Shown here piece after piece: positions 596 through 17,982 of a stretch of DNA of 64,000 nt. Under the pieces are notes generated by a model. It did not search any database. It was not told the DNA's origin and saw only the letters and a list, made by a program, of their open reading frames with translations. Made by a program: the position numbers and the translations under genes. Location of the stretch: the NCBI RefSeq assembly GCF_024637375.1, contig NZ_JAGXFK010000036.1:22945-86944 (forward strand), written 5' to 3'. The DNA comes from Sediminimonas sp. GTDB lineage: Bacteria > Pseudomonadota > Alphaproteobacteria > Rhodobacterales > Rhodobacteraceae. Within the stretch, counting starts at the first letter, position 1, and every line of letters begins with the position of its first letter.

Positions 596-603
596 GGTCT
601 CTC

Positions 604-1300: not shown

Positions 1301-2682
1301 CACCAAACTCCTCTGCCTGCGCCGAACCCGGCCGTGGCGCGCACCGGCCGGTCGGTATCCCGCGCCCCGCGCGTGACGGGTCGATAGTCGAAGGGCTGAT
1401 AGTCGATCTGCGCCGAGGCCACCGCCAGCGCGCCGGCCCAGAAGCGGTCGGCGTGCCCGTCGGTCTCGCCATCGGCCACCAGGCGGCGGATACCCGTCGC
1501 GCCGACCTGGCTCTTGATCGCGTGCAGGTCCGCGCGCAGGCGCGGATCGCCGGCGGGAATGCGGATCCTGCGATCCTGCATCCGGTCCTTGAGCCCGGTG
1601 GCCATGTCGAGCTTCGCGGCCGAGGTGAACATCACACCGTCGACGCGGCTTTCGCCGTGGGTGCGCTTGGCGTCCTCGACGGGCTTTTCGCCCATGCCGG
1701 TCTGGTCCATGGCGCAGCGCACTACGCGGTAGCGCGCGAAGGCATCCGCCAGCAGGTGATCCTGCTCGGCGAAGGTGGCCCGCCGCCGAACGATGATCTC
1801 GCGCGTCCAGAGCACGTCGCCAACCTGCTCGAGCACCCAGATCACGAACAGGTCGTTGCGCGCGGCGATATCCACGCCCACGAAGCAGGGGCCGCCCTGG
1901 TAATGGCCGGGCTCGCCCGCGGCCTCGCTCTCGCAGCCCGAGATGAGCTCGTAATCCAGCCAGCTCGATGCTTCGTCCATCCACTTGAGCTCGAACTCCT
2001 GAGCCCAGGCGTCCTCGTCCGCGATGCCCGCACGCAGCTCGTCGATGTCCACGTCGAGCCCCTCGGCGACAGCCTGGTAGATGTCGACCATGTGCTTCGA
2101 CCAGGTGTCGTCCTCGGCCGTCATCAGCTCGTAGAACTTGTTGCCCTTGCCGTTGGGTGTGGAGATCACCCTGATCTTGTGCCCGCCGCGTGCAGCGACG
2201 GGAAAGGCCGAGGCCCAGATGCGGCGGCTGTCCTGGTGAAAGGCGAACTCGTCGAGCAGCAGGTTGCCGCCGAAGCCGCGCGCCGCGTCGGGGCTGGCCG
2301 AAAGCGCGGTGACACGGCTGCCGCCGGGGAAGCGCACCTCGTGCGTCTTGTAGCGGGCGTCGAGCTCCGGGGCGTAGAACTCGCCCTCGTCGAACTCCGG
2401 GGTGCCCTGCCGGGCGAGCTCGTTATAGACCGCGTAATACCCCCTTGTGATAGGCTTCAACGCATCTTCAAGGGCCTCTTTCGCGGTCGCCTCCGATCGC
2501 GACAGGATCGTCCAGCGCACCTTGCGCCGCTGCATCTCCGCCTGGATGCAATCGTCCACGATCTCGCCGCAGGAGCCGAAGGTCTTGCCGCCGCGCCGGG
2601 TGAACATGCCGATCTTGAAGCGCGCGGCATCCGATATCCACGCCTTCTGGTAGGGCAGGAAGGTGATGACGGGCTGGGCCAT
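1300..2682 (-). CDS. Phage terminase large subunit (Mu gp28-like)
   Basis: MAQPVITFLPYQKAWISDAARFKIGMFTRRGGKTFGS...; Walker-A-like RRGGKTF, LLLDEFAF, C-terminal nuclease-like region; stop overlaps the methyltransferase ATG (TGATG). Confidence 0.9.
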   Translation of the reverse strand: MAQPVITFLPYQKAWISDAARFKIGMFTRRGGKTFGSCGEIVDDCIQAEMQRRKVRWTILSRSEATAKEALEDALKPITRGYYAVYNELARQGTPEFDEGEFYAPELDARYKTHEVRFPGGSRVTALSASPDAARGFGGNLLLDEFAFHQDSRRIWASAFPVAARGGHKIRVISTPNGKGNKFYELMTAEDDTWSKHMVDIYQAVAEGLDVDIDELRAGIADEDAWAQEFELKWMDEASSWLDYELISGCESEAAGEPGHYQGGPCFVGVDIAARNDLFVIWVLEQVGDVLWTREIIVRRRATFAEQDHLLADAFARYRVVRCAMDQTGMGEKPVEDAKRTHGESRVDGVMFTSAAKLDMATGLKDRMQDRRIRIPAGDPRLRADLHAIKSQVGATGIRRLVADGETDGHADRFWAGALAVASAQIDYQPFDYRPVTRGARDTDRPVRATAGFGAGRGVW

Positions 2683-2981
2683 CAGGCTTCCTGCCAGTAG
2701 CCGTTGCGCAGCCAGCCGTGCCAACCGCAGTTCAGCTGACGCACCGAAGGCGCCAGCGTCGGCTCGGTAAGCGATCCGTTCCACGCCCAGGACGGCTCAT
2801 GCGCCGGCTTGGCCCCCTTCCGGATGGAAACGCGGCACGGCCCTTCGCAGCCACAGGGGCAGAAGAACCACATGCCGACCGACCCATCGGGCTCCACTCT
2901 TGTCAGGTCGATGTGGACGCTTCCCGGCAACGCCAAACGGCGATGTTCCGCGCGATCGGCGATATGAATGGCGCGGATCAT
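2682..2981 (-). CDS. DUF6527-like phage protein
   Basis: MIRAIHIADRAEHRRLALPGSVHIDLTRVEPDGSVGMWFFCPCGCEGPCRVSI...; Cys-rich CPCGCEGPC motif. Confidence 0.65.
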   Translation of the reverse strand: MIRAIHIADRAEHRRLALPGSVHIDLTRVEPDGSVGMWFFCPCGCEGPCRVSIRKGAKPAHEPSWAWNGSLTEPTLAPSVRQLNCGWHGWLRNGYWQEA

Positions 2982-3181
2982 TGGGCTGCCTCGCGCATGG
3001 AGATCAGATAGGGCTTTCCCTTGCGCCATGCGACCAGGCAGCGCATGCCCAGGTGCTCGAAGCGCTGGCGCCGCCCGAACAGGAAGGCGAGCGCGGCAGG
3101 CCTGAACGGCCCGCGCCGCCAGTTGTGATCGCCAACCAGGACGACTGCGCCACAGGCAAGATCGATTGCCGGCTCCATCAC
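2978..3181 (-). CDS. Hypothetical phage protein
   Basis: 67 aa ORF with start/stop overlaps with both neighbours on the same strand. Confidence 0.5.
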   Translation of the reverse strand: MMEPAIDLACGAVVLVGDHNWRRGPFRPAALAFLFGRRQRFEHLGMRCLVAWRKGKPYLISMREAAQ

Positions 3182-3366
3182 ACCACCCCGACCAGCAGAG
3201 CGGCCACCAGGAGCCAGACACCGGCGGCACCGACGATCAGCAGCGGCACGTGCCGCCAGAACGTGCCCGCCCGATCCGCCGCCCAGATGCCCGCGATCAA
3301 AAACCCCGCCGCCGGCAGCAAGGCCAGCACCCCCGCTGCGATGATATGCAAAACCCAGTCCAGCAT
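3178..3366 (-). CDS. Small membrane protein (phage)
   Basis: 62 aa, two hydrophobic segments, overlaps the next gene. Confidence 0.5.
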   Translation of the reverse strand: MLDWVLHIIAAGVLALLPAAGFLIAGIWAADRAGTFWRHVPLLIVGAAGVWLLVAALLVGVV

Positions 3367-3382
3367 GATATGCCTCCTCCTG

Positions 3383-3919
3383 TCAGCCGAAGCCCATGAT
3401 TTCCCGCGCCTTGGTCGCGGCCGCCTCGTCGATCGCCCCGTCGGCCACGGCCTCGTCGAGCCGCGCCGACTGCGCCTCGCGCTCCGCCCTCAGGATGCCA
3501 TCGCGCAGCGAGGTCGAGCGGATCAGGTTGTTGAGCGCCGTGGTCAGATCCTTCATGCCCCGCGGGTCGGGCATCGCGTCCGGATCGGCCATCATCATCT
3601 GCAACCGCCACTGGATCGTGGTGAGCTGCTGGAAGAGCGCCGAGGTCACGTCGACCTCCTCCTTGAGGCTCGCCTCCTCCAGGAAGGTGCGAATTTCCTC
3701 CTGCGCCTGATCCTGCATCCGCGCGTAGTCGCGGAACTCCTGGCCGTAGGCGTGCAGCGCGGACTTGCCGACGCGCAGCTCGAGCCCGGCCTCCTCGAGG
3801 CGGAAGTTCAGCGCCTCGGCCAACTCCTCGTAGCCGGCAAACCCGCGCGCGCGCAGCTCCTCCTGGAGCCACCCGCGCAGCTCCGGTGGCAGCAGGTCGA
3901 TCTTGCGGGGTTGCGGCAT
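3383..3919 (-). CDS. DUF3486 family protein (Mu gp27-like)
   Basis: MPQPRKIDLLPPELRGWLQEELRARGFAGYEELAEALN...; position beside gp28-like terminase. Confidence 0.85.
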   Translation of the reverse strand: MPQPRKIDLLPPELRGWLQEELRARGFAGYEELAEALNFRLEEAGLELRVGKSALHAYGQEFRDYARMQDQAQEEIRTFLEEASLKEEVDVTSALFQQLTTIQWRLQMMMADPDAMPDPRGMKDLTTALNNLIRSTSLRDGILRAEREAQSARLDEAVADGAIDEAAATKAREIMGFG

Positions 3920-3922
3920 GGA

Positions 3923-4222
3923 TCAGCTCCTCGGGCGAGGGCGCTGGATGTCGGGATGGCTCGACGCGCCGCGCGCGATCTCCACGCCGTCGCCGGTCGC
4001 GGTGACCACCACGAAATCGGCCCGATCGTCGTAATCGACGAAGCCGTTCTCGCGCAGCCAGGCGAGCTCGGTAATCACCTGGCTGCGCGTCGAGGTGACG
4101 CCGAGGCCGGCCAGGACATCCGTCAGGATCGCCGCGTTCGAGGTGTACTCGGCGCATTGCTCCAGGTGCCTCAGGATTGCGAGGCGGCGATGCCGCCGCA
4201 GGGTTTCGGAATAACTGCTCAT
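3923..4222 (-). CDS. Mu gp26-like / winged-helix-like phage protein
   Basis: LRRHRRLAILRHLEQCAEYTSNAAILTDVLAGLGVTSTRSQVITELAWLRENGFVDYD; syntenic with Mu gp26. Confidence 0.7.
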   Translation of the reverse strand: MSSYSETLRRHRRLAILRHLEQCAEYTSNAAILTDVLAGLGVTSTRSQVITELAWLRENGFVDYDDRADFVVVTATGDGVEIARGASSHPDIQRPRPRS

Positions 4223-4587
4223 CTGTTTCTACCCCCTTCGAGAAGGTGATCCTCGTGCCGCGTCACGACCCGCTCGAGCCGGGCGAGGATTTCATTCTGT
4301 CCGCTCATCGACGCCGACATGGCGCTCATCGACCCGGCCATCTCCGTGAGCCGCAGCTCCAGCCGGTGGGTCTCGTCGCGCCCCGGCATGTCGTGGACCG
4401 TCTGCTCGAGCCGGGCGATCCGCGCCTCCAGGCTGTCCATGCGCTTTGAGCCCTCGTGCAGCCGGCCGTCGACAGCCTTTCCGCGCGTACGCACCCAGGT
4501 GAAGACCACAGCCGCGATCGACAGAATGAAGCTCGCGGACTTCAGCCCGATATCGATCACGTCCGCCATCATGCAGGCGCCTCGCAC
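4219..4587 (-). CDS. DUF2730 family protein (Mu gp25-like)
   Basis: N-terminal TM followed by coiled coil; position between gp26-like and lysis genes. Confidence 0.7.
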   Translation of the reverse strand: MRGACMMADVIDIGLKSASFILSIAAVVFTWVRTRGKAVDGRLHEGSKRMDSLEARIARLEQTVHDMPGRDETHRLELRLTEMAGSMSAMSASMSGQNEILARLERVVTRHEDHLLEGGRNR

Positions 4588-4787
4588 CCGGCCGCAAAAC
4601 CGCGCAGAAGACGGGTCCCCGTCTCGATCGCCGCCGCGTCATCCGAGCTTGCCAGCGCCCGCGCATGGGCGCGGGCCAGCGACTCCAGCCCAGAGCAGAT
4701 GGCTTCACCGCTTGGGCGCACCGCCGTCTCCGTATTGCTGCAGCCAGCTGCGATCATCATCACCGCCATCAGTGCCGCTCGTCGCAT
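4569..4787 (-). CDS. Small lipoprotein, candidate o-spanin (Rz1-like)
   Basis: MRRAALMAVMMIAAGCSNTE lipobox; overlaps upstream TM/coiled-coil ORF out of frame. Confidence 0.6.
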   Translation of the reverse strand: MRRAALMAVMMIAAGCSNTETAVRPSGEAICSGLESLARAHARALASSDDAAAIETGTRLLRGFAAGCEAPA

Positions 4788-4947
4788 CGTCGATCCTTTC
4801 GCGTGTCTTCTGGTAGTCCTGCGCCGCCTGCGCCGCGACCTCCTGCTCGGTCTCGCGGCGCCCCTTGCGGCGCGAGCGGGCCATCAGCGCAAAGAGCGCC
4901 CCCACCGCGGCGGCGATGCCCAGCAGGATTTCGACAACGCCGCTCAT
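4705..4947 (-). CDS. Small TM + charged helix protein, candidate i-spanin (Rz-like)
   Basis: MSGVVEILLGIAAAVGALFALMARSRRKGRRETEQEVAAQAAQDYQKTRERID; precedes and overlaps the lipoprotein ORF. Confidence 0.6.
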   Translation of the reverse strand: MSGVVEILLGIAAAVGALFALMARSRRKGRRETEQEVAAQAAQDYQKTRERIDDATSGTDGGDDDRSWLQQYGDGGAPKR

Positions 4948-5198
4948 GTCAGCACCCGCCGGAACACCAGCCGGAAGCGCGGCGCCCGGCGCTCCAGCCA
5001 CGCCCAGAGCCCGAACAGCGCCGGCATGATCGCGACGACGAAGTCGAGCAGCTGGCGCTCGCCGGCAAAGCCGAGGCGCTCGATCCAGCCGGCAACGTCG
5101 ATGCCCGCCGCCTGGGCGAGCACGGTGACGATCAGCAGGATCTGGGCGTAGAAGCTCCGCGCGTGCCAGGCAGGGAGTTCGGGGGCGGTCTCGCTCAT
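4944..5198 (-). CDS. Candidate holin
   Basis: 84 aa, two hydrophobic segments, directly after the endolysin gene. Confidence 0.55.
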   Translation of the reverse strand: MSETAPELPAWHARSFYAQILLIVTVLAQAAGIDVAGWIERLGFAGERQLLDFVVAIMPALFGLWAWLERRAPRFRLVFRRVLT

Positions 5199-6052
5199 TC
5201 CGGCGGCTCCTTGAGATAGTTCTCCACGACCCAGCCCTCGGCGCCGCCGAAGGCCACTTTCACCCAGCGGCGCCCGGAGAAGCTGCCCGCCTTGACAACC
5301 GGCACCAATGTGCCGTCGGGGATGCGATCGATGACGTTGGGGTTGAAGCTCGGCCAGCGGCGCATGTTGAGCGGGTCGCCGCGGGTGTCGACCTGCATCA
5401 GCTCGTCGCCGTCGATGTCATCCGCTGCGGCATCGGCCTGCCACTCGGCCGGCTCCTCGCGGCCGACGATGCGCGCGCGGACATGGCTCAGGGGGAAAAG
5501 CGGGTTGGTGTCGACCTTGCGGCCGGGCGAGATGTACCAGTGGGTGACGATATCCTCGAGTGCGTCGCACCCGTCGAACAGCGCCTCCAGCAGCCGCAGG
5601 ACCGCCTCGATCTGCTCTTCGGGATAGGCCATCCAGAGACCGTGGCCATGCGCCTCGGTGCGCAGCTCCTGGATGCCGTAGGTGTTGATGTCGAACTCCT
5701 CGCCATACCAGGCCCGCGCAAAGCCGCCAGGCGCGGCCTCCATGCGGCCGGGATTGACAATCTCGATGCCGACCGAGAAGGCGTTGACGTGATCGCGGCC
5801 GTGGTAGTGCGATCTTCCCGCATGGTTCGCCCGCACGCCCACCGGGACCTGCTGGACAACCCGGCCGTCGCGCTCGATCACGAAATGCACCGACACCTTG
5901 CGCGCGTTGTCGGCCAGGTACCTGGCCGCGGCGCCCGGCGTCAGCCGGCTGGCGGTGTCGTGGAGCACCACGACGGTGGGGGTGATTTGTCCTCCGGTCC
6001 AGCGCGCCTCCGTAAAGGAAACACCCTCGACCCGGCCATCCTTGAGTTGCAT
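5195..6052 (-). CDS. N-acetylmuramoyl-L-alanine amidase endolysin with C-terminal SH3-like domain
   Basis: TPTVVVLHDTASRLTPGAAARYLADNARKVSVHFVIERDGRVVQQVPVGVRANHAGRS; C-terminal SGRRWVKVAFGGAEGWVVENYL. Confidence 0.88.
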   Translation of the reverse strand: MQLKDGRVEGVSFTEARWTGGQITPTVVVLHDTASRLTPGAAARYLADNARKVSVHFVIERDGRVVQQVPVGVRANHAGRSHYHGRDHVNAFSVGIEIVNPGRMEAAPGGFARAWYGEEFDINTYGIQELRTEAHGHGLWMAYPEEQIEAVLRLLEALFDGCDALEDIVTHWYISPGRKVDTNPLFPLSHVRARIVGREEPAEWQADAAADDIDGDELMQVDTRGDPLNMRRWPSFNPNVIDRIPDGTLVPVVKAGSFSGRRWVKVAFGGAEGWVVENYLKEPPE

Positions 6053-6177
6053 GCGTGCCTCCGGGTTCTACGACCCGACAGTCGCATGCACCGGCACGGC
6101 AATTCAGTCTTGAATGTATTCAGGGGGAACGGTGTTTTGCGCGGCGCAAGGTGCTTCGCAAGGTTGCAGGCGCCGGC

Positions 6178-6558
6178 TCAGCTGTCAAATGGCAGATCCA
6201 TCTGGCCGCTGTCGCGGTCGATCTGCGCACGATAGTTGGACACGGTGCGAATATGGAGGTCGCACGCCAGCGCGACCTCCTGAAGCGAGTGGCCCTTGCG
6301 CAGCATACGCATGGCGCGCGCCCGCCGCGCGCCGACGCCGCGGGCGCCGGCCGTCGGTAGCGTGAGCTTGCCGGGCCCGAAGGTGTCGATCATCGCCTGC
6401 GCTTCCGCCTCACCCACGAGGCGCGCCAGCATGGACCCTGTTGCGCGCACCGGGATCGATATCTGCGTACCGCCCCGCGCCCCCAGAAGGCGCAGGGCGG
6501 CGGCCTCGCCGATCACCTCGGCAATCTCGGCAGCGACCGCGGGAAGATAGTTACCCAT
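6178..6558 (-). CDS. Mor-like middle/late transcription activator
   Basis: MGNYLPAVAAEIAEVIGEAAALRLLGARGGTQISIPV...MRMLRKGHSLQEVALACDLHIRTVSNYRAQ. Confidence 0.8.
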   Translation of the reverse strand: MGNYLPAVAAEIAEVIGEAAALRLLGARGGTQISIPVRATGSMLARLVGEAEAQAMIDTFGPGKLTLPTAGARGVGARRARAMRMLRKGHSLQEVALACDLHIRTVSNYRAQIDRDSGQMDLPFDS

Positions 6559-6811
6559 CGCCCGCCCCCTTTGACCGGCGGCGCGGCCTCCGGTGGTTGG
6601 GCATGTGGCTGGGCACGACGGTGGTGACCACCTGGCCGCGCAGCTTGTAGGTGAAGCCGCCGACGCGCACGCCGCAGGCGCCCGGGTGCGCCATGGCGCG
6701 ATCGACCTTACGCCCGACCTCGCGCCGATGCGTCTCGACATCGATGCGAAGGACGCGCTCCAGGTAGCGCAGCAGCGCGTGATCGGAGACTTCAGCGACC
6801 GGCTTTTTCAT
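6551..6811 (-). CDS. Hypothetical Mu-like phage protein
   Basis: MKKPVAEVSDHALLRYLERVLRIDVETHRREVGRKVDRA...; between gp16 and Mor. Confidence 0.6.
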   Translation of the reverse strand: MKKPVAEVSDHALLRYLERVLRIDVETHRREVGRKVDRAMAHPGACGVRVGGFTYKLRGQVVTTVVPSHMPNHRRPRRRSKGAGDG

Positions 6812-7263
6812 CTGCCGCGCTCCTGCTCGTCCACCTCGATGCCGGCGCGTTCGCACCAGTCCAGCAGCGCCTGGATGACCGTGTCGATCTTCTCCCAGTC
6901 GCGCAGCATGTCGATATCGGCCGGCATCGAGCCCCAGGCATCGCCGAAGCGGCGGCGGATGAAGGCGTTAAGCCCGGCGCGTCCGGGCTGCTTGAGTTCG
7001 CCCGCGTCGCCCAGCAGGCGCCAGAGCACATGCACCAGGCGCAGGTCGGCGCGCGGCGCGCGCGGGTGGCGCACGCGCCCCGGCGTCGGATCGAAACCAG
7101 ATGCCTTGAGGCGATCCACCACCAGTCGCAGATCGGCCTCGGTCATGTCCCGCATGCTGGCCTTGCCCGTCGTGGCGTGCTGCAGGTCGCGGCGCGCATC
7201 GGCGTCGAGGCCCAGCTCGCGACACCCGACATGGATCATCTTCTGAAGGTCGCGCGCGCCCAT
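6808..7263 (-). CDS. Mu gp16-like (DUF1018) protein
   Basis: MGARDLQKMIHVGCRELGLDADARRDLQHATTGKASMRDMTEADLRLVVDRLKASGF. Confidence 0.85.
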   Translation of the reverse strand: MGARDLQKMIHVGCRELGLDADARRDLQHATTGKASMRDMTEADLRLVVDRLKASGFDPTPGRVRHPRAPRADLRLVHVLWRLLGDAGELKQPGRAGLNAFIRRRFGDAWGSMPADIDMLRDWEKIDTVIQALLDWCERAGIEVDEQERGR

Positions 7264-7264
7264 G

Positions 7265-7477
7265 TCACACCTCCTCCACCGTGCCCGCCTGCTCCAGCGC
7301 CATCCGCGCCAGCGCCGCGCGGATCATCGCGTGCTGCAGCTCGTCCATGCCGATGACAAAGACCCGGTCGTCGATGCGCAGCTCCAGCCTTGCGTCGTCC
7401 ACCAGCTTCACCTGCCCGGCCGCGCGGGGCCCCTTGTCGCGGACCGGCAGATCTATGATCGCGATCTGATCTGCCAT
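7265..7477 (-). CDS. Hypothetical phage protein
   Basis: 70 aa ORF in tightly packed early operon. Confidence 0.5.
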   Translation of the reverse strand: MADQIAIIDLPVRDKGPRAAGQVKLVDDARLELRIDDRVFVIGMDELQHAMIRAALARMALEQAGTVEEV

Positions 7478-7480
7478 GGA

Positions 7481-8131
7481 TCACACCCGTGCCAGGTCGA
7501 GCACGGCCGGCTCCCAGGCCGCCTCGGCGTGATCGCGCATGTAGCAGCGCACGTAGGTTTTCGAGCCGACCACCCGCATCGCGTCGCGGATCGCCCGCAT
7601 GGCACGCTGCCAGCGCGCATCCTCGATATCCAGCCGCAGGAGCATGAAGATTTCCGAGCGGTTGATCTGGCCTTCCTTGTCGGTATTGAAGGCGCGGGTA
7701 ACGATGGCGCGGATTTCCGGGCGGGCCTCAGCGGCCCACTCGTTGAGGCACTCGTCGATCAGCGTCTTGGCGATCTGCAACTCAGGCCCGAAATCCACCC
7801 GGTCGGCCACGGCAATCTGAACTCTGAAGCAGCCGTCATAGGACATCAGCGTCTTGTTGCCCTTGGCGCCGCCCAGCGTCAGCTCGTACTCCTGGGCAAG
7901 CAGGGCCTCCAGATCACCGACATCCTCGAAGACATGGGTCTTGAACCGCCGCATCTGCTCGCTCAGCGCCCTGGCATACCCCACGATCTTGCGCACCGTT
8001 TCGTCCTGCAGCTGATCCTGTGGCTTGACCACCTCAACGGGCACGAGCGCACCCTTGGCGTCGCGCATGTATGTCTTGCCGTCCATCTCGATCTGACCCG
8101 AGTGGATCGGGGCGGGCGTGTGTTCGGTCAT
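7481..8131 (-). CDS. DUF3164 family protein
   Basis: MDGKTYMRDAKGALVPVEVVKPQDQLQDETVRKIVGYARALSEQMRRFKTHVFEDVGDL... Confidence 0.85.
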   Translation of the reverse strand: MTEHTPAPIHSGQIEMDGKTYMRDAKGALVPVEVVKPQDQLQDETVRKIVGYARALSEQMRRFKTHVFEDVGDLEALLAQEYELTLGGAKGNKTLMSYDGCFRVQIAVADRVDFGPELQIAKTLIDECLNEWAAEARPEIRAIVTRAFNTDKEGQINRSEIFMLLRLDIEDARWQRAMRAIRDAMRVVGSKTYVRCYMRDHAEAAWEPAVLDLARV

Positions 8132-8352
8132 TGGTCATCTCCTGTTGAAGAGGGGGTTGAAGAGGCGGTTTGCACCTCATCGTTTTGGTGCTCGGGTGGC
8201 ACCAGCGCACCGGAGGCCACCAGCACGCCGGCCATCGCCTCAATCTCGTTCATAGTGCACAGCGTGGTGCCGCGCGGACCGAGAATGTCGATCTTGTGGA
8301 CCGCCTTTGCCGCCAGGCGCAGCATCTCGCTCTCCGCAAAGCGCTCAGTCAT
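8128..8352 (-). CDS. Hypothetical phage protein
   Basis: MTERFAESEMLRLAAKAVHKIDILGPRGTTLCTMNEIEAMAGVL; overlaps both neighbours. Confidence 0.5.
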   Translation of the reverse strand: MTERFAESEMLRLAAKAVHKIDILGPRGTTLCTMNEIEAMAGVLVASGALVPPEHQNDEVQTASSTPSSTGDDQ

Positions 8353-8698
8353 CTTCACCTCCATCGTCGAGGATCGCGTCGACCAGGTCGTCATGCGCCA
8401 CCGCCGTTTGCAAAAGCGCACCGGCAAGCTCCGAAACGGTGATCCCGCGCGCCTCGGCATGGGGGATGAGCGCATCGCGCAGCCCGTCGGGCGGATCGAG
8501 GATCACGAACCGCGTCCGACCGGCGGTGGGCCCTGTCTTGAAAAACGGGATGTCGGCGCCCTTGCGCCGCTCGCGGCTCAGTAAGTCCGAAACCGTTTTG
8601 CCACCCAATCCGAGCATTTCCGAGATTTCGCGCGGCGGATGCCCCTGCCGCGCAAGGTCGAGTATCCGGTCCCGGTGAGCTATCCGTGACTTACCCAT
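8345..8698 (-). CDS. HTH-containing small phage protein
   Basis: MGKSRIAHRDRILDLARQGHPPREISEMLGLGGKTVSDLLSRERRKG. Confidence 0.6.
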   Translation of the reverse strand: MGKSRIAHRDRILDLARQGHPPREISEMLGLGGKTVSDLLSRERRKGADIPFFKTGPTAGRTRFVILDPPDGLRDALIPHAEARGITVSELAGALLQTAVAHDDLVDAILDDGGEDD

Positions 8699-9068
8699 CA
8701 GAGCCTCCCTTGTTGATCGGGCAGCGGTTGCAGGCCCGGAACATGGTCACGTTGCGGGTGTTGGCGTTCGACAGCTTGCGCGACTTGGCACGCCAGTGCC
8801 GGCACTGGTCCAGCGGCATCACCCCCATCGCCGGGCAGTCGACGGTCTGCGCCTCGAAGGCGCCGCGATAGAGATCCTCGACCCGCGCCATGTCGCCCGG
8901 GTACTTGCCCGCGATCACGTTCGAGATCATGGCAGCAGACACACCCATACGCTTGGCGACGCGGTTCTGACTGGTCTCGGCGCAGGCCCGCGCCAGCCCC
9001 TCGACCCAGTCGGGGATGTCCGCGCCATAGGCCGCCCGCGCGCGCTCGATCGGTGTCACCTGGCTCAT
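8691..9068 (-). CDS. HTH-type phage regulator with Cys motif
   Basis: MSQVTPIERARAAYGADIPDWVEGLARACAETSQNRVAKRMGVSAAMISNVIAGKYPGD...FRACNRCPINKGG. Confidence 0.65.
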   Translation of the reverse strand: MSQVTPIERARAAYGADIPDWVEGLARACAETSQNRVAKRMGVSAAMISNVIAGKYPGDMARVEDLYRGAFEAQTVDCPAMGVMPLDQCRHWRAKSRKLSNANTRNVTMFRACNRCPINKGGSDG

Positions 9069-9394
9069 GCGACACCTCCGGCGATGTAGGCGTATTCGCC
9101 GCGGTTGTCGTCCCAGACCGCGCGCACCCGCTTCTCGCGCGGCGGGCGGGGGCCGGTGTCGCGCACCAGGCGGTAGACCGCCAGCCGCCCCTTGGGGCGC
9201 GCCTTGCGCTCGACACGCAGATACCCGGCATTGGCCAGCATCCGGCAGTAGTCGCGCGCAGCCCCCTCGGAGACCGGCACGCTGCTTGTGTTGGCGTGCA
9301 TCGCCACGTCGCGGTAGGTGAAGGCCCCCAGCCCGCGGATGGCGCGCCACATGTTGCCCTGCGGCGTGGCGACCCTGGCGCGGTTGCGCGTCAT
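9065..9394 (-). CDS. Phage protein with winged-helix-like region
   Basis: MTRNRARVATPQGNMWRAIRGLGAFTYRDVAMHANTSSVPVSEGAARDYCRMLANAGYLRVERKA. Confidence 0.6.
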   Translation of the reverse strand: MTRNRARVATPQGNMWRAIRGLGAFTYRDVAMHANTSSVPVSEGAARDYCRMLANAGYLRVERKARPKGRLAVYRLVRDTGPRPPREKRVRAVWDDNRGEYAYIAGGVA

Positions 9395-10158
9395 GCCGAG
9401 ATCCTCCGCGCGTCGGGCGTGATGCCGGTGAAAAAGTCGCGCCGCCCCCAGTCCTCGAGCGTCAGTCGATCGAGGTTGCGGGTGGCGGCGATCTCGCGGG
9501 CCAACTCGAGGTTCTCCACGATCCGCCGCGCCGAGCCGCCCGACGCCGTGCGCATCTTGGCCAGCAGCGCCGCGTCGATCTCGACCTCGGGGCAGCGGAT
9601 GCGCCGCAGGAGATCGAAGTCGTCGTCGTCCGCGGGCTCGGCTGCGACCCAGCTCAGGATGCGGCCGTGCACCCGCTCCCACTTGCGCAGCTTCTGCGGC
9701 AGGAGCTCCTCGCCGATCAGGATGACCGGCACGAAGGAGCTCTCGTAGATGTCGCGCACGATCTCGATCATGCCCTTCTTGACCAGGAAGTCGGCCTCGT
9801 CGATCAGCAGCGGCACGCCATCACGCGCCAGCACCTCCGCGATCTGGTCGACCATGTCGCCGATGACCTTCGCGGGATGCACACCCAACTCGGCGAGGAT
9901 CGCCTGGCAGAGCTTCTTCTGGGTCCAGACCGACTTGACCTGGACGACGCATGCCTGCTCCTCGTTGGCGACGTAGACGCTGGCGGTCGTCTTGCCCAGG
10001 CCCGAGGGGCCGTAGAAGCACCCCATCCCCGGCAGCCCGTGGCCGCGGTTCTCCAGTCGGCGCATAAGCGTCAGGAACGCAGTCACGTTCCGCATCGGCG
10101 CCAGTGTATTGTATAAGGCTCTTGTCTCTGCCATGTTTACCTCGCTTGTGTTAAGCAT
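9391..10158 (-). CDS. MuB-like AAA ATPase, transposition target protein
   Basis: GCFYGPSGLGKTTASVYVANEEQACVVQVKS; PLLIDEADFL; adjacent to MuA-type transposase. Confidence 0.92.
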   Translation of the reverse strand: MLNTSEVNMAETRALYNTLAPMRNVTAFLTLMRRLENRGHGLPGMGCFYGPSGLGKTTASVYVANEEQACVVQVKSVWTQKKLCQAILAELGVHPAKVIGDMVDQIAEVLARDGVPLLIDEADFLVKKGMIEIVRDIYESSFVPVILIGEELLPQKLRKWERVHGRILSWVAAEPADDDDFDLLRRIRCPEVEIDAALLAKMRTASGGSARRIVENLELAREIAATRNLDRLTLEDWGRRDFFTGITPDARRISA

Positions 10159-10195
10159 CGGCGCGGACGGGCTGGCGGGCCCGCCGCGCCACCTT

Positions 10196-12340
10196 TCACC
10201 CCAGCATGTCGGGATGTTTCCTCAGCACATCGCGTTGCGCGATGTACTCGGCCGTGGATTGGTAGCTCGCCAGCCACGCGGCCTGCTCGTCTCCGATCTC
10301 CTCTCCGCGCCCCAGGCGCGCCTCCAGCTCGATCGCCGCCCGGAAGCGTGACCGCTCGGTCTCGGCGCGCGGGCGGGTCGCCTCGGCCTGCCGCCGCTTC
10401 GCCTCGAAATCCGCCACCACTGCCTCGTGCGCGGCGTCCTCCTCGGGGCTGCGCTCGCGCGGCTTGAGGGCGTTCGCCGGCGCGGGCTTGCGCTCGAAGG
10501 TCGGGCGGACGACCTGCGCCTCGACGGCCGGCGCCTCGCCGGTCGGCCGGGTCGCGTCCAGGTAGCCGCCGATCTCCGCGGCGCGCATCCGTTGCAGCGC
10601 ATCGGCCGCGGCACGCTCCTTCTTGACGAAGTGGCGCTTGGCGGCGGCGTGGTTGCGCGCATCCTCCAGGTCGAAGAAGCCGCCCTTCTCGATGCACTCG
10701 GCATGGCCGAGATAGGCGCTGTCGAGACCGTAGAGATGCAGCCCGGCATGCAGGTCGGCCGGATCGAACCGCGCGACGACGCGGCGCCCGGCTACCTGGT
10801 GCATCCAGGGCGCCCAGTACTTGTTCTCCATGAACTTGATCTCGCCGTTGCGGCTATGCGCGTGCATGCCCTCTGCGCCCATCAGCCAGAGCCGGCGCTG
10901 CTCATCGGTCGCCTTGCGGATCGGCGCGGTCGCGTAGCTCTCGTCGAAGGTCTCCAGCAGGCTCCGGCCCTGCGTGGTCTGGCCGCGCCGCCCGGGGCGC
11001 GCGTTGTGCTCCTCGATCCCCTCGGCCAACACCGCGAGAAACTCCTCCAGCGGGATCGCGCGGTTGCCGTAATTCTCCGGTTTTGCATCCGGCCGATTGC
11101 CCGTATAGGCGCCGGCGAGACGTGGATCTTTGGCGATGTCGTCGCAGAAATCGCGGAAGGCGCGCTCGATCGGCTTCGACTGTCCGCTGTAAGGGGTGGC
11201 CCAATGGACCTCGCAGCCCAGCGTCTTGAGGATGCCGGGAATGTCGTCGTCCTTGACCTTGAAGCGGTAGCGCGTCGGCACCTGGCCGGTGAGGAACTTG
11301 TTGGCGAACTCGCGGCCGTTATCGAGAAGGATGTGCTCGGGGATGCCGAAGCGCTCGATCATGTCGCCCAGCGCGAGGCTCACGCCCACCTTGTTCGGCG
11401 TCCGGTCGACGCGCCAGCTCACGATGCGCCCCGAATAAATGTCCTGGAACGCGACCAGCTGGGGCCGGACGATCTCCTCGCCGCCCGCCAGCCCCTCCGA
11501 GGGCCAGCGCACGAAGACGTCGAAGCGATGATAGTCCGCGTTGACCGCCTCCATCGCGTGCAGCGCGGTGCGGTCCCTGATCTGCGACGGGTAGAGCCGC
11601 TTGAGCGCCTCGACGCCCTGGCGGCAGAGCACGATCGTGGTTTCGGGAACCTCCGCATCCAGCCGGCGGCGCATCGTGCGCTCGGGCAGTGTGGTCCAGC
11701 CCTCGGATTTCGCGATGCGCGCCGCGCGACGATAGCACGCCGAGAAGCTCGGCTGTTCAAGGCGCAGGTAATCGGCCTTGAGCACATCCCAGAACTCCGG
11801 GCTGCAACCGGCCGATGTTTCGCCGCGCACGGCGGCGCCATGGCGCGGCGCAAGGTGGGGCAGCCGGTCGTCGCTGCGCACGCCCTCGATCCGCCCCAGC
11901 CAGTTCCAGACCGTGCGCGCGCTGCATCCGAACTGGCGCGCCACCTGGTGGCAGGCCAGATCGCGGGTCATCCCGCCGCGCTCCAGCGCCTCGACGGTCT
12001 GTACTGCCTCCAGGGCGCGGTGCGCCTTGCGCTTCGTGCGCTCCGCCAGTCGGTCGAAGCGCGCCCAGAGGGCCTCGCGATCCACCGGCGCGGGCGCACC
12101 CGGGGGTGGCGCGGCTTGCGCCAGCAGCGCCTGCTGCGCCCGGCTCGGCAGCAGCGTCCAGTGATACTCCCATCCGCCGCCGCGGCTCTTGCGCCGCCGT
12201 GCCGCGCCCGGCGCCTGCCGCCAACCTAGCCGCTTGACGGTCAGCTCGACCCCCTGCCGGCTGGCCGGAAGGTCCGGCAGCGCGGCCTCGGCCAGCTCGG
12301 CGGCGGTCCACCATTCGCGATCCGGGCGGCGCTCACTCAT
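10196..12340 (-). CDS. MuA-type DDE transposase
   Basis: 714 aa; N-terminal Mu DNA-binding domain (EWWTAAELAEAALPDLPASRQGVELTVKRLGW), catalytic core motifs (VNADYHRFDVFV, ILLDNGREFANK, SKPIERAFRDF). Confidence 0.95.
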   Translation of the reverse strand: MSERRPDREWWTAAELAEAALPDLPASRQGVELTVKRLGWRQAPGAARRRKSRGGGWEYHWTLLPSRAQQALLAQAAPPPGAPAPVDREALWARFDRLAERTKRKAHRALEAVQTVEALERGGMTRDLACHQVARQFGCSARTVWNWLGRIEGVRSDDRLPHLAPRHGAAVRGETSAGCSPEFWDVLKADYLRLEQPSFSACYRRAARIAKSEGWTTLPERTMRRRLDAEVPETTIVLCRQGVEALKRLYPSQIRDRTALHAMEAVNADYHRFDVFVRWPSEGLAGGEEIVRPQLVAFQDIYSGRIVSWRVDRTPNKVGVSLALGDMIERFGIPEHILLDNGREFANKFLTGQVPTRYRFKVKDDDIPGILKTLGCEVHWATPYSGQSKPIERAFRDFCDDIAKDPRLAGAYTGNRPDAKPENYGNRAIPLEEFLAVLAEGIEEHNARPGRRGQTTQGRSLLETFDESYATAPIRKATDEQRRLWLMGAEGMHAHSRNGEIKFMENKYWAPWMHQVAGRRVVARFDPADLHAGLHLYGLDSAYLGHAECIEKGGFFDLEDARNHAAAKRHFVKKERAAADALQRMRAAEIGGYLDATRPTGEAPAVEAQVVRPTFERKPAPANALKPRERSPEEDAAHEAVVADFEAKRRQAEATRPRAETERSRFRAAIELEARLGRGEEIGDEQAAWLASYQSTAEYIAQRDVLRKHPDMLG

Positions 12341-13160
12341 CGCGATCCCACCCCATCTGCTCGATGTCCTCGGACATGTGATCGAGAAACCGGCGCCGCG
12401 CCGCCATCGGCGCGCGCGTCCATGCCTTCATCAGCGCTTGAAACCCGTCTTCAACGGGGTCTTTGGGCGCGGGCTCGACGTCGCCCTGGCGGTACGCCTT
12501 GCGGGCGGCATTGACGGTCCCGGCCTCACCGTTCGAGAGCGCAATGCAGACCTTTGCGCGCTCGGCGTCATCTGTGATCTTCGAGATAGCCTGAAGGTCA
12601 GACATGGTGGGCGGTTTGGGCGCTGCGCGAAGCCACCGCGCCTGATCGGAAGACAGGGCCGCCCCCGCCGCCACGATCCGCTGGATTTGTCGCGTCGACA
12701 AGCCGAGAAGATCGCCCACGAAATCTGCAAACGACAAATTTGTCAGTTGCAGACCGTGCCTGGCGAGCGCACCGGCCGTGCCGCGTGCTGTCTCCGGGTG
12801 CAGAGCCTCATACATGTCCTTGCGCGCTGCCAGGCTCAACGCGAGGTCGAGTGGCTGCATATGTGTGAATGACACGTTCGCGTCAGCCTCCATCAGCCGC
12901 GCCTGGTCGAGCGTGCACTCCCAGACCTTGGCTGAGATGGTCTCATGACCGAGCTGGCGCGCCGCCTCCAGGCGGTGCCGACCGTCGATCAACTGGTATC
13001 CATCCTTGGCCTTCCTGACATGGATCGGATCCCGGATCGCACCGACCTCCTCGACGGACGCCTTGATGATCTCCACTGCCTTGTCGTGCAGGGGCGTCAC
13101 GCGCACGCGGCTCGTGTCGATCTCATCTACAGGCAGGTCGATCAGCTTGGCGTCACGCAT
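12333..13160 (-). CDS. ParB/RepB-like nuclease-domain protein (phage)
   Basis: IHVRKAKDGYQLIDGRHRLEAARQLGHETISAKVWE; ParB-N-like fold motif. Confidence 0.8.
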   Translation of the reverse strand: MRDAKLIDLPVDEIDTSRVRVTPLHDKAVEIIKASVEEVGAIRDPIHVRKAKDGYQLIDGRHRLEAARQLGHETISAKVWECTLDQARLMEADANVSFTHMQPLDLALSLAARKDMYEALHPETARGTAGALARHGLQLTNLSFADFVGDLLGLSTRQIQRIVAAGAALSSDQARWLRAAPKPPTMSDLQAISKITDDAERAKVCIALSNGEAGTVNAARKAYRQGDVEPAPKDPVEDGFQALMKAWTRAPMAARRRFLDHMSEDIEQMGWDRDE

Positions 13161-13383
13161 CCCTCGGTCCTTTCGTCATCGTGTATCGACAGATCAGCCG
13201 GTCCTTGCGGCGCTCCCGCGTGCAGGCGATCTCGGCGCCGTTCTGGCGCAGCTCGGCGATGCAGCTGTTCACCGCGCACACCCCGGCCGCGCGAACGATC
13301 TGACGCGTCGTGTGCGGGCGCCCGTCCTTCAGGACGGCCAGCACGCGCTGCAGGCGCGGGGAGGTGAGCGGCGCGGCATGCAT
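13153..13383 (-). CDS. HTH domain phage protein
   Basis: MHAAPLTSPRLQRVLAVLKDGRPHTTRQIVRAAGVCAVNSCIAELRQNGAEIACTR. Confidence 0.6.
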   Translation of the reverse strand: MHAAPLTSPRLQRVLAVLKDGRPHTTRQIVRAAGVCAVNSCIAELRQNGAEIACTRERRKDRLICRYTMTKGPRDA

Positions 13384-13631
13384 CACGGCACCATCTGCGG
13401 ATCGACACCGCCCGCCACCGCGCGGCAGTGGTTGCACATGCGATGCCCCGGCCCGGTCGAGACAAATTCCGCCTCGCAGCGCAGGCAGTTGCGTGGCCGG
13501 CGCTGGCGCTCGATCGCGATCCGGTCGCGCCTATTCTCGGCCAGGTGTTTTTGGGACAACTCCGGTGTGACGGGCTTGCCGCCCTCGAACACCGCCCAGC
13601 CATACCCGTATTTGCGCACATCAAGGCTCAT
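13383..13631 (-). CDS. Zinc-ribbon-like small phage protein
   Basis: CLRCEAEFVSTGPGHRMCNHCRAVAGG. Confidence 0.55.
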   Translation of the reverse strand: MSLDVRKYGYGWAVFEGGKPVTPELSQKHLAENRRDRIAIERQRRPRNCLRCEAEFVSTGPGHRMCNHCRAVAGGVDPQMVP

Positions 13632-13835
13632 GGCAGCACCTCCGGCAGCCAGAGACCCGCGAACAGAAGGATGAAAAGCGCCGCCACCCCGAGCGCAGCG
13701 CCCAGCAGGCTGTTGTCGAGATACCAGGCCACGCGCCGGAATAAGCCGCCGCGGCCGCGGGGCTCCGTGAGTGGTGGCGTGCGGCCGGGGCGTTCCCTAC
13801 CATCGGAAGCGCCAACAACCAGATGGAGGAAACTC

Positions 13836-14045
13836 ATGGATAAAGAAAACGAAGACCTGAAGGCTCGCGTAAGGGCGTTGGAGATCATGATCCTATCCCT
13901 CGCCGCTCTGAGCGATGGCGACCTCGCATCGCGCCTCGCCGATATGATCAAAGGTCAGGCCGCTGCAGCCGAGCGGCAGGGTGACCTTCGTGCTCACTAC
14001 CGTCTGCATTCGCTCAAGGACGAGCTCGAGCAGATCCTCGGTTGA
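13836..14045 (+). CDS. Small coiled-coil protein on the opposite strand of the early operon
   Basis: ggagg upstream of atg; MDKENEDLKARVRALEIMILSLAALSDGDLASRLADMIKGQAAAAERQGDLRAHYRLHSLKDELEQILG. Confidence 0.5.
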   Translation: MDKENEDLKARVRALEIMILSLAALSDGDLASRLADMIKGQAAAAERQGDLRAHYRLHSLKDELEQILG

Positions 14046-14131
14046 AATCAGGCCAAGCTGCTGATCCAGCCGGGCCAGCCTGTGCCGCCGCACGTCCTGT
14101 CGCGCGACGCCGGCGTCGAAAAAACCAGTCA

Positions 14132-14353
14132 TCATCCGCACTCCTGTTCGAATTGGCAGCGCAGGATGCGGCTGCTGGCGGCCGTGGCTTCCTCGGCCAG
14201 CCGGCTCAGCGCGCCGATGCAGCGCCCATCCTCCACGTCGCGCACCAGCAGGATCGCCAGCTTGACGCGGTCGGCCTGCGGAATGCGCGCGATGTCCTGG
14301 GCCACGCCGGGCGCATCCAGCGCCCCGGGCAGTCCGCGTTTGGGGTGGGTCAT
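14132..14353 (-). CDS. Hypothetical phage protein
   Basis: 73 aa, ggagg upstream of ATG on minus strand, follows the DGR-like target gene. Confidence 0.45.
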   Translation of the reverse strand: MTHPKRGLPGALDAPGVAQDIARIPQADRVKLAILLVRDVEDGRCIGALSRLAEEATAASSRILRCQFEQECG

Positions 14354-14397
14354 TTGATGTCCTCCGGGTTGGCGATTCGTTGGTGGTGATCGACCCG

Positions 14398-14417
14398 CCT
14401 GCCGGCGGACCGGCAGG
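14398..14417. other. 8-bp stem / 4-nt loop GC-rich hairpin 17 nt downstream of the variable-region stop codon
   Basis: cctgccgg-cgga-ccggcagg perfect inverted repeat. Confidence 0.75.
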
Positions 14418-14434
14418 GCGCAGGGGTGCGGATT

Positions 14435-15628
14435 TCAGAATGCGAAAGCGGGCCGGAACCCGATGATCGAGAGCGCGACCGAACGCGGGTTGTTCAGGCT
14501 GAGGGCGAACACGCCGGCATTCACGCCGTGGAGCCAGTGGCCCCCACTCAGGGCGATGGTGACGCGCCCCGACCAGTGCCCCCAGGCCCGATCAGGGATG
14601 ACCGCGGCCTCCTTGTCCGCCACAACCTCCGAGGGCAGGAAGAGCGGCGACAGATCGAAGCCGGAGCCGCGCTCGTCGTGGAAGTCGACCGGATAGCCGT
14701 CCTTCTCGCCGGGGCCGTAATGCACGCCGGTCGCGACCCAGTCGTCGCCGCCCGGCACGTCGGCGCTCCACAACACGATCTCGCCATCCTCGGCCAGCTG
14801 CAGCCCGTCGACGAACTGCCAGACATTGCCCCACAGATCGTGGATGCCGCGCCAGACGGCCGAGGTCTCGCCGGTGGGCTTGACCCCGCCGCCGTCGACA
14901 TTGCCGCGCCCCAGCGCGCCCTGCATGTCCGTCCCGCCGATCTCGATCAGCATCAGAAGCTGGATTGCCGCCAGGTCGTAGATCGAATAGAGCCGCCAGC
15001 CCTGACCCAGCGCCGCGCAGTGCTCGCGCGCGTCACCGATCGTTACCCCGGTCCAGGGCTTGTTGCCCGCCTCGCCGACGATGCGACCCTCACGCTCCGA
15101 AGCCGGATACTTGCCGACGCGCAGCGCTGCGCAGGCAGTTCCATCGGGGCGCAGGAAGGCCGGGTGCAGGCGGTAGCCGGGGCGCGCGCAGGGCGAGACC
15201 AGCCAGAGCCGCTCGTCGCCGCGCCGCTCGCTGCGCACCCAGAAGCGCGGGATTTCCACGGTGACCACGTCCACATTTGTCGGCACGTCGCGGATGCCCG
15301 CCCAGACCGGGTGCGTGTCGAAATACGTCCGCTCATGGTGAAGCGTGCGGCCCGCCGCATCCACGCGCCGCCAGGCGCCGTTCTTGTGCAGGGCAATGCC
15401 GACGACATCACCCTCCGCGCCGATCGTGCCGCGGTATTCCACCGCCTCGATCGCGCCATCGGAGCCGTACGGCCCCTGCACGAAATCCCACAACGCGCGC
15501 GCCTGCCCCAGCGCCTCGGCTGGCTGCAGTCCGGCGTCGAGGGCGCGATTGACCAGGTATAGCCGGGTCTCCATTGCGTCATTCATCTGCATGAAGGTCT
15601 CCTTGCGGGTTGGGGTGAGGTGGATCAT
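14435..15628 (-). CDS. FGE-sulfatase / C-type-lectin-like protein with C-terminal DGR-type variable region
   Basis: WRGIHDLWGNVWQFVDGLQL (FGE-like) and C-terminal GGHWLHGVNAGVFALSLNNPRSVALSIIGFRPAFAF; ATGA overlap with upstream ORF stop. Confidence 0.82.
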   Translation of the reverse strand: MIHLTPTRKETFMQMNDAMETRLYLVNRALDAGLQPAEALGQARALWDFVQGPYGSDGAIEAVEYRGTIGAEGDVVGIALHKNGAWRRVDAAGRTLHHERTYFDTHPVWAGIRDVPTNVDVVTVEIPRFWVRSERRGDERLWLVSPCARPGYRLHPAFLRPDGTACAALRVGKYPASEREGRIVGEAGNKPWTGVTIGDAREHCAALGQGWRLYSIYDLAAIQLLMLIEIGGTDMQGALGRGNVDGGGVKPTGETSAVWRGIHDLWGNVWQFVDGLQLAEDGEIVLWSADVPGGDDWVATGVHYGPGEKDGYPVDFHDERGSGFDLSPLFLPSEVVADKEAAVIPDRAWGHWSGRVTIALSGGHWLHGVNAGVFALSLNNPRSVALSIIGFRPAFAF

Positions 15629-15870
15629 GCGGCGTCCTCCGATTTGCCGGAGGGGCGCGGTATGTCGGCGGGCCACTCAAGATCGCAGGGCCAATTGCTC
15701 GAGAACCAATGAAGCGCGCGCTGGTATGTTTTGACGGTGCACCCCTTGCCGGAGCGCAGCCGACTGAACAGCCGCGCGTGTCCAGCGATATGGTTGGAGA
15801 TCGTCGCCTCACTGCGCCGAACGTGTGAGCCGTAAGCCTCCGCCAAGGCTATGAGGTGTAGGTTGTCCAT
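15625..15870 (-). CDS. Small HTH-like early phage protein (ner/cro position)
   Basis: MDNLHLIALAEAYGSHVRRSEATISNHIAGHARLFSRLRSGKGCTVKTYQRALHWFSSNWPCDLEWPADIPRP; divergent from repressor. Confidence 0.65.
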   Translation of the reverse strand: MDNLHLIALAEAYGSHVRRSEATISNHIAGHARLFSRLRSGKGCTVKTYQRALHWFSSNWPCDLEWPADIPRPSGKSEDAA

Positions 15871-15884
15871 GCCATTGTGGTAGT

Positions 15885-15976
15885 AAATTTACACTGCATG
15901 AGCAAGGCAAAATTACACTCATTTGGAAACAGCGTGTTTTCTTGCATCTTGGGCGGGTCTAGTGCATTTTTACACC
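15885..15976. promoter_or_regulatory. Candidate operator/early promoter region with repeated TTTACAC motifs
   Basis: aaatttacact (15885-15895), aaaattacact (15909-15919), catttttacacc (15965-15976) between divergent regulator genes. Confidence 0.45.
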
Positions 15977-16675
15977 GTGAATGTCAGAGAGCAGATATAC
16001 ACGCTCTTCGAGGGGCGCCGGAAAGCGCTCGGTTTCTCGCAAGCCGAGCTTTGCCGTCGTGCGCTCGGCACGCCCAGCACCTCCGCGATATAAAACATTC
16101 GACGAGGCGCATCACCTTCGGTCGAGACAGTCAAGAAGCTGGCCGACGCACTCGATCTCGAGTTCTACGTTGGCCCGCCGCGCGAAGAGGGTCACATCTA
16201 CACCACCGAGATCGCCGGCGAGGAGTTTTCCCCGATCCCGCGCTACGACGCGCAGCTGGCCGCCGGCGGCGGCGCTTTCAATGGCGAGGGCGACCCGATA
16301 TCAACCCTCGCCTTCCGGCGCGAATGGCTGGCACGAAGCGGCATCTCGCCCGCCTCGGCCTGTATTCTGTCGGTTCGCGGCGACAGTATGCGGCCAACCC
16401 TGCACGACACCGACCTGGTGATGATCGACACGCGGCGAAAGCAGATCCGAAACCGGCGCATCTACGCCTTCGTCGATCGGGATGGCGAGGCCCGCGTCAA
16501 GCGCCTCGAGGCGATACCGGGGCGCATGATCCTTCTGCTTTCCGACAACCCTGACCACGAGACCGAGTTGCGCGAAGGCCCCGACATGGATAGCCTACAG
16601 ATGCTTGGCGAGGTCGTGTGGTCTGCCCATACCTGGCTGGACCAGGTCCACATAAAGGTGCCGGAGGCATTATGA
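15962..16675 (+). pseudogene. Prophage repressor (HTH + S24/LexA-like peptidase) with in-frame TAA
   Basis: VHFYTVNVREQIYTLFEGRRKALGFSQAELCRRALGTPSTSAI*NIRRGASPSVETVKKLADALDLEFYVGPP...ILSVRGDSMRPTLHDTDLVMID...; TAA at 16091-16093. Confidence 0.85.
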
Positions 16676-17148
16676 ACCGCAACGCTCTACTCGCCCTTGT
16701 CGCGGCATCCCTCCCCGCCGGAGCTGACGCGATGGAGAGCGATCTTCTTCACTGCCTTCAAGGGCACTTCGTGATCTCGGACGTCGAGGTTGATGTTGTG
16801 GAGGAAGCGGTCGATGTCACTTTTGGGGTGGCCAACAATCTGAGCTATCCCGTCGGCGGCGCACATGTGATGATCACTGTCACGCACGCCGATCGGCCCA
16901 CTCCGATCGCGAGCTGGGGGAGCCAGGCGCTGCTCACCATTCCGGGCGGCCTCCTGCCTGGCGAGAGTATGACCACCGAGACATACATGTACATCGAGCC
17001 CCGAGTGCAGGCCATGATCGAGGACCCCGGCCAGCTGTCCGTTCTTGTTGAGGTCGAGAGTATAGCGAATGGCGATCTCATAAGCGTGCGCAACGGGCTT
17101 TGGGTAAGCAGCTGGACCGAGGGGCCGTCGGGTGACGGCTGCCCGTAA
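16672..17148 (+). CDS. Secreted hypothetical protein, candidate prophage moron
   Basis: MNRNALLALVAASLPAGADA signal-peptide-like N-terminus, beta-rich body; immediately follows the repressor. Confidence 0.65.
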   Translation: MNRNALLALVAASLPAGADAMESDLLHCLQGHFVISDVEVDVVEEAVDVTFGVANNLSYPVGGAHVMITVTHADRPTPIASWGSQALLTIPGGLLPGESMTTETYMYIEPRVQAMIEDPGQLSVLVEVESIANGDLISVRNGLWVSSWTEGPSGDGCP

Positions 17149-17577
17149 GCTGGCCCGGTCATAGGCCGTGAGAGCAAAAATCGCTTGCAGGTTATGGTCT
17201 GCCCCGCGCTGCGCTTCATGAATATTAAGTCTTTGATGCCACGCCAAAATTCGCCAAGGTGCAAGCGCCACCGCAACCTGCAAGTCGAGTTGCATGTTTC
17301 GCGCCCAGCCCGCGGCCGGAAACACCCGCTTCAACGCCCCTTTTCAGTGCGATTTATGGCGCGTTAAACGGCACTTAGCTTGATCGTCCCGCGAGAAGCC
17401 CACGACGCCACCGAAGCGATCCACACCGGCCACACATGTCGATTTCCGTGCCTCTCTGCAATTTCACGCGAGCGCCGCCGCTTCCCGCAGCATCTTTATT
17501 AAGGTCCTGTTTTTGCGGCCTCATCCGCCTTCATCCGGCCTCACCCGGTCTCTTCCGGCTTTCTGAAAGAACAGGTG

Positions 17578-17982
17578 TCAACGCACAGCCAGCCCGACGA
17601 CCAGCGTCGTCGCCAGCGTCGGCAGCGTGACCACCGATGTCAGGTAGCCCACCCCGCCGCGCAGCACCGCCGCCGCCGAGACCGTGCCCGCGGCCACGAT
17701 GGCCAGCCCGACCAGCACCGCCAGCGCGCGCGAGTGCAGCCCCCGCTCCACGAACGCCGCCTCGCCGGCGGCCTCGGGCATGCGGGTGGACAGCTCGGCA
17801 TAGCTCAGCGCCGAGGGCACCGCGATCAGCCCGGCCAGCACGAACGACAGCGGCGCCCAGGTGCCGGCCTGCGCGGCCACGGCACCGACCAGCACGTAGA
17901 TGCCGGCACCCACCATGACGCCGACGCCGTAGGCGGTCAGCAGGCCAAGGCCGATGCGGCGTTCAAGCCCCGCTTGTGCCAT
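17578..17982 (-). pseudogene. APC-family amino acid permease, truncated by prophage insertion
   Basis: [81 protein letters not shown]...; only about 134 aa before stop at the junction. Confidence 0.85.

Follow-up and report, generated by a model that had tools for sequence, protein, structure and literature searches.

Diversity-generating retroelements (DGRs) are known from both phages and bacterial genomes. In phage BPP-1 (mtd-avd-TR-brt; PMC3240598), the single target is an adjacent tail-fibre gene. Hankyphage, a Mu-like Bacteroides phage, is also described with one adjacent tail-fibre target in the portions of the published accounts considered here (PMC6199706, PMC12135933). Phage variable repeats (VRs) are followed, 4-34 bp further on, by GC-rich stems of 7-10 bp carrying 4-nt GRNA loops (Guo et al., PMC3240598). 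According to a figure quoted in PMC10743442, about 13% of DGR cassettes have two targets. Gut phages provide examples (tentaclins, PMC10743442; Faecalibacterium phages, PMC11792537), in which one template repeat (TR) serves two C-type-lectin targets of the same phage. Remote variable proteins, with one TR and targets far from the reverse transcriptase (RT), have been reported in cyanobacteria and Treponema denticola (PMC7517822, PMC4891356).

We analysed a stretch of 64 kb, hereafter the window, corresponding to positions 22945-86944 of contig C79 in a 98-contig assembly. Its minus strand carries a gene for a protein of 385 aa (window 14435-15592, ATG at 15592, AAGGAG just upstream), ending with GGHWLHGVNAGVFALSLNNPRSVALSIIGFRPAFAF and a stop codon at 14435-14437, as a previous sequence-only reading had stated. 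That reading proposed a DGR variable region at 14435-14545, which agrees with the stretch of 105 nt (window 14443-14547, minus strand; hereafter VR2) that we found to match a template repeat. Searching the genome with the VR gave three places: VR2 itself, C79:10556-10660 on the minus strand (the TR) and C79:11100-11217. The TR is located on the same contig, outside the window and 26.7 kb from VR2; since it sits to the left of the window, a repeat search inside the 64 kb found no template. Over 96 nt, VR2 and TR display 10 mismatches, all at template adenines (21 adenines out of 96), a confinement far beyond chance (hypergeometric p=3e-8). The sole further difference in the 105-nt match is a T for a C in the last bases, which is the distinction between IMH and IMH*. 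Positions 14443-14547 are almost certainly a remote variable repeat of a DGR carried by a Mu-like prophage, and membership of a DGR is as firm as sequence allows.

The variable-region reading of the C-terminus was thus borne out, with the refinement that VR2 is a second, remote target. The template that had been predicted, "CCGCGTTCG AAC GCG AAC TCG AAC ATCGGGTTCCGG", was found letter for letter at C79:10556-10660. The same reading had called for a near-identical template differing at A positions and for a DGR-type RT, especially left of position 1 in the same prophage. Both are there, the TR differing at A positions plus one IMH/IMH* base, and the RT lying with Avd beside it. It had also suggested comparing homologues, and their C-terminal codons do vary at template A positions. 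Its list of eight variable NNC codons holds except for GCC (Ala), which is the same in the template and so is not variable. Three Asn codons of the template, one AAT and two AAC, are missing from this list; they can vary but are unmutated in this copy.

The core of the cassette lies on the minus strand of C79, outside the window, and comprises the RT (C79:9301-10395), the TR, Avd (C79:10675-11031) and a first, tail-located target, the VR1 gene (C79:11105-12184). Read on the minus strand, the order is tail genes, VR1 gene, Avd, TR, RT, then sheath and tube genes. The RT belongs to PF00078, and its best PDB match is 8ub7 (E=1.3e-70, compared with about 3e-23 for RTs of group II introns), which we take to be the BPP-1 RT. 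It carries the motifs IGSLTSQ and YMDD; group II RTs have QGxxxSP at the place of IGSLTSQ. The ranking of PDB matches and these motifs assign the RT to the DGR clade. Avd scores above the cut-off of the NCBI model NF033474 (DivGenRetAVD) and also matches bAvd (PF22296), although no PDB sequence match was obtained despite these strong family-model matches. VR1 differs from the TR at 13 positions, all 13 being template adenines, and the VR1 and VR2 segments are 85% identical. An independent second DGR, with RT, Avd, TR and VR, was observed in a different prophage of the same assembly (L005, C98:22000-38000). This other prophage has a tyrosine-integrase-like gene, and its TR (about 8491-8593) and VR1 (9020-9135) show 10 mismatches, all 10 at adenines.

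We then looked at the signals surrounding the repeats. VR2 finishes with an IMH end, CGGCCCGCTTTCG (window 14443-14455, minus strand), while the template carries the IMH* CGGCCCGCTCTCG. In all eight phages of our comparison set, which have both targets, the IMH form CGCTTTCG is found in VR1 and VR2 and the IMH* form CGCTCTCG in the TR. Following the rule of PMC3240598, a hairpin was identified downstream of VR2 (CGGTCCGCC-GGCA-GGCGGGTCG; window 14391-14412, minus strand). It has a 9-bp stem including 2 G.T pairs and a GRNA loop, and its spacing is the same as after VR1. The stems after VR1 and VR2 have different sequences. For every VR1 and VR2 of the phage group, the hairpin loop lies 52-54 nt past the first base of CGGCCCGCTTTCG, with the loop sequences GGCA, GAAA, GAGA, GATA, GACA and GGAA, all of the GRNA form. 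No GRNA-loop hairpin was found after the TR in any template of the group.

The retroelement belongs to a transposable prophage of 39,129 bp (C79:1403-40531), of which positions 1-17587 fall in the window. MuA, MuB, TG..CA ends and a 5-bp target duplication identify it as Mu-like. The duplication, GCCAG, has its left copy at C79:1398-1402 and its right copy at window 17588-17592. When the prophage was excised in silico, leaving one GCCAG copy, a permease frame was open again, with 396 residues in the stretch read. Moreover, the alignment with a related contig (L010) breaks off precisely at C79:40531, in support of the left end of the prophage. In the window, the divergent S24-type repressor-like gene (15977-16675, plus strand) is followed by a small ORF of phrog_7669 (15625-15870, minus strand) in the position of ner in Mu, the VR2 gene, small ORFs, a gene for a ParB-like protein (12333-13160, minus strand), the MuA-type transposase (10196-12340, minus strand; DDE_2, HTH_Tnp_Mu, Mu-transpos_C) and the MuB-type transposition ATPase (9391-10158, minus strand; phrog_296). 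The repressor-like gene contains an in-frame TAA at 16091-16093, which falls in the HTH region and is also present in contig L009; in L010, the N-terminal part of this gene is different.

In the other phage family (L050, L011, L025, L141, L142), the VR2 gene lies between MuA and genes labelled gemA and Mor-like from their position and sequence. The gene is thus in the early region of both families, at two different places, and never in the late module of any relative. By analogy with gene order in Mu, it would be expressed early; a scan around VR2 turned up no sigma-70-like promoter. VR1 and VR2 share a strand, and both point away from the repressor end. Targets that run in the direction of replication are the most efficient for retrohoming (PMC12875486), and this orientation would be the favoured one if the phage replicates from the repressor end as Mu does.

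To see how VR2 evolves, we compared the eight phages with both targets. For three of them, the pairing of VR2 with TR assumes that contigs of one sample or genome belong together (L010/L067, L025/L048 and L011/L080). The mismatches between VR2 and TR located at adenines are 10/10, 11/11, 14/14, 11/11, 14/14, 9/10 and 10/10 in seven phages, and 7/15 in the eighth (G411). At the 24 non-A sites that vary among templates, VR2 has 0, 0, 0, 0, 0, 1, 0 and 6 mismatches to the template of its own phage, against 5-17 mismatches to the other distinct templates for the first seven. By permutation, only 4 of 40,320 pairings match equally well, all of them exchanges between identical templates; with unique templates, the figure is 1 of 720. 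Judged from these sequences, VR2 tracks the template of its own phage in seven of the eight, i.e. it evolves in concert with it. For the window's prophage, the two are 26.7 kb apart on one contig and the best match of VR2 is its own template. L011 had been considered as an exception (9/15 against the Actibacterium template), but this was dropped, as the template of the same-sample contig L080 gives 9/10. In G411 (L142/L143), VR2 has 8 non-A mismatches to the template, 7 of which are in the first 24 nt, and its 3' end is intact; homing may be reduced or partial there, perhaps with just the 3' part still converted.

Across 10,545 aligned positions, the prophages of Antarctobacter and L010 show 33 differences. 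Twelve of these 33 differences are concentrated in the 99-nt VR of VR2, all 12 at template adenines, and the VR1 copies of the two differ at 11 positions, again all adenines. This adenine-only divergence between otherwise near-identical phages is evidence of recent activity, as read from the sequences. VR2 is identical in the window and in L009, the contig closest to it. Only six of 27 viral records with VR1-type or VR2-type matches held a full VR2 gene; VR2 is present in only part of the DGR group, and fragments may hide others. The Antarctobacter heliothermus DSM 11445 prophage (L046/L047) lacks about 12 kb relative to C79 16.7-28.7 kb and may be unable to form particles; the missing region has head and packaging genes, while RT, TR and both VRs are kept. 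Another related DGR phage (L132, G421:C1:4202-4923) has three template-like repeats 304 bp apart, two of them nearly identical, possibly a template duplication.

The VR2 protein consists of a two-helix N-terminal module, a C-type-lectin-like body of the FGE type and the variable C-terminus. Its AlphaFold2 model has a pLDDT of 70.8 and a pTM of 0.74, the VR itself being of low confidence. In the PDB, sequence profile and fold (Foldseek, E=8e-10) both give a single significant match, TaqVP (PDB 5vf4), a variable protein from the DGR of a Thermus aquaticus prophage (PMC6328139); against viral models, Foldseek matched tail-collar proteins. The match with the formylglycine-generating enzyme family PF03781 (E=0.077) is below the cut-off. 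Sequence comparison identifies a DGR variable protein with an FGE-type fold, and PF03781 gives no support to an enzyme. The sequence-only reading, which saw a prophage FGE/lectin-like protein, was right about the FGE-type lectin fold. As the gene lies in the early region, the protein may not be an ordinary tail fibre. The two-helix module is conserved among VR2 proteins and stands where a shaft or collar would be. We found no credible relative of it in phages, nor in 199 family genomes with a search so insensitive that the window's own copy was also missed. Purifying selection acts on the body, with dN/dS of about 0.14-0.3 between close pairs.

A tree of 38 proteins with the VR removed, the root of which is not firmly resolved, separates VR1 bodies from a group made of VR2 bodies and targets ending in LGxRLAK (support 100/100). 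The VR1 and VR2 proteins share only 26% identity. Most LGxRLAK relatives have an RT on the same contig, and from their sequences they look like targets of another DGR type. The C-terminal end of VR2, IGFRPA, matches VR1 and the resident template, not LGxRLAK. On these sequences, capture of a lectin gene from another DGR lineage, with its variable end apparently re-addressed to the resident template, is the simplest explanation. The nearest LGxRLAK relative is L027, with 47% identity, although its exact placement is not firm (82/97). This relative of the VR2 body (Devosia MAG, 5417-6361) lies beside a helicase/methyltransferase-like gene and has a perfect 9-bp GGCA hairpin after its VR. No template was found for L027; the RT stretch of the Devosia genome (L051) was rejected as the source, as it contains no template and its RT has QGAPTSP, without the DGR motif. 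L157 and L159 are LGxRLAK-type targets with the same lectin body and quite different N-terminal modules, that of L157 matching only phrog families without assigned function.

We propose that the RT, with Avd, would copy the TR RNA, erring at adenines, and that the mutated cDNA would replace the 3' end of two phage genes, the adjacent tail gene (VR1) and the early-region VR2 gene. An IMH end and a GRNA-loop hairpin of its own would mark VR2 as a target, whereas the template lacks the hairpin and carries IMH*. If the analogy with phage BPP-1 holds, retrohoming to VR2 would be mutagenic and RT-dependent. It is hardly conceivable that the resemblance of TR and VR2 results from ordinary recombination between repeated lectin domains and point mutation, with no DGR: the two are indeed repeats within one prophage, but in six phages every mismatch falls on a template adenine, and DGR RT, Avd, IMH/IMH* and hairpin are all present. 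A former target, now a dead cassette, is unlikely in the window's prophage. The in-frame TAA of the repressor-like gene and the identical VR2 of L009 point in this direction; however, this identity says little, as L009 probably derives from the same population or one almost identical to it. Moreover, RT, Avd, TR, IMH and hairpin are all intact, and close relatives show recent activity. An origin of VR2 as a simple duplicate of VR1, moved to the early region and now drifting, is very improbable and was rejected. The fold is the same and the VR segments are alike, but the VR-less bodies are split with full support in the tree, identity is only 26%, and purifying selection and own-template tracking argue against drift.

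The function of the VR2 protein is less settled. From gene order, we propose, at roughly even chances, that the gene encodes a recognition protein that acts early and stays outside the virion, for instance one directed against a variable factor of the host or of a competing phage. More broadly, the phage DGR would diversify in trans an early or lysogen-made non-virion protein, whose gene was captured from another DGR type and re-addressed, a reading that we put at somewhat less than even chances; the protein could then bind, for example, host defence, host surface or competing-phage factors. The main rival, which is quite possible while falling short of an even chance, is a second virion adhesin, placed next to the VR1 protein in the tail or baseplate so that the particle has two independently varied binding tips. 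Relatives of the FGE body are mostly annotated as tail or tail-collar proteins, phage DGR targets are mostly tail proteins (PMC8144416) and two-target phage DGRs exist (PMC10743442). However, the gene keeps to the early region in both phage families, and the protein has a short two-helix N-terminus, with no shaft or collar.

The DGR itself is of a known kind. What is new here is a remote target in the early region, its separate body ancestry and evidence of ongoing variation. In at least seven related phage records, a single template is shared by a tail protein and an early-region protein. Such a far-off early-region target looks unusual, and our literature search, in which subscription journals were little covered, found no early-region phage DGR target described. 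The largest DGR survey, as stated there, could not detect remote targets (PMC8144416); phage DGRs may thus vary more than tails. A route to a new DGR target is also suggested, in which IMH, hairpin and VR come onto a lectin gene of another lineage. As two carriers, Antarctobacter heliothermus DSM 11445 and Pseudoruegeria aquimaris CECT 7680, are named strains in culture collections, the benefit of targeted hypermutation to an early phage gene becomes open to experiment.

Compared with BPP-1, the window's phage has the same cassette order (VR1-avd-TR-RT), A-specific VR/TR differences, IMH/IMH*, a GRNA-loop hairpin 3' of the VR, the same Avd family and a related RT, and adds a second target. The DGR of Vibrio phage VHML (tail fibre, FGE target, RT, sheath) is alike in that the VR1 proteins match and the VR1 gene, within a P2-like tail module, is flanked by tail-fibre and sheath genes. 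It differs in that a search with VR2 matched only the VR1-like ORF35, with no second place, and in that the window's phage is Mu-like and transposable. Hankyphage, too, is transposable, carries a DGR and makes 5-bp target duplications. TaqVP shares the FGE-type C-type-lectin fold and the C-terminal VR, with 20-21% identity to the VR2 protein over the structural alignment, but the two-helix module of the latter is without known relative. The remote targets of cyanobacteria and Treponema are in bacterial genomes, whereas VR2 is in a phage. A remote gene of T. denticola SP32 has retained a VR belonging to another DGR type, while here a body of foreign type has a VR matching the resident template. 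Finally, both tentaclin targets are inside the DGR cassette (PMC10743442), whereas in the window's phage one of the two is remote, in the early region.
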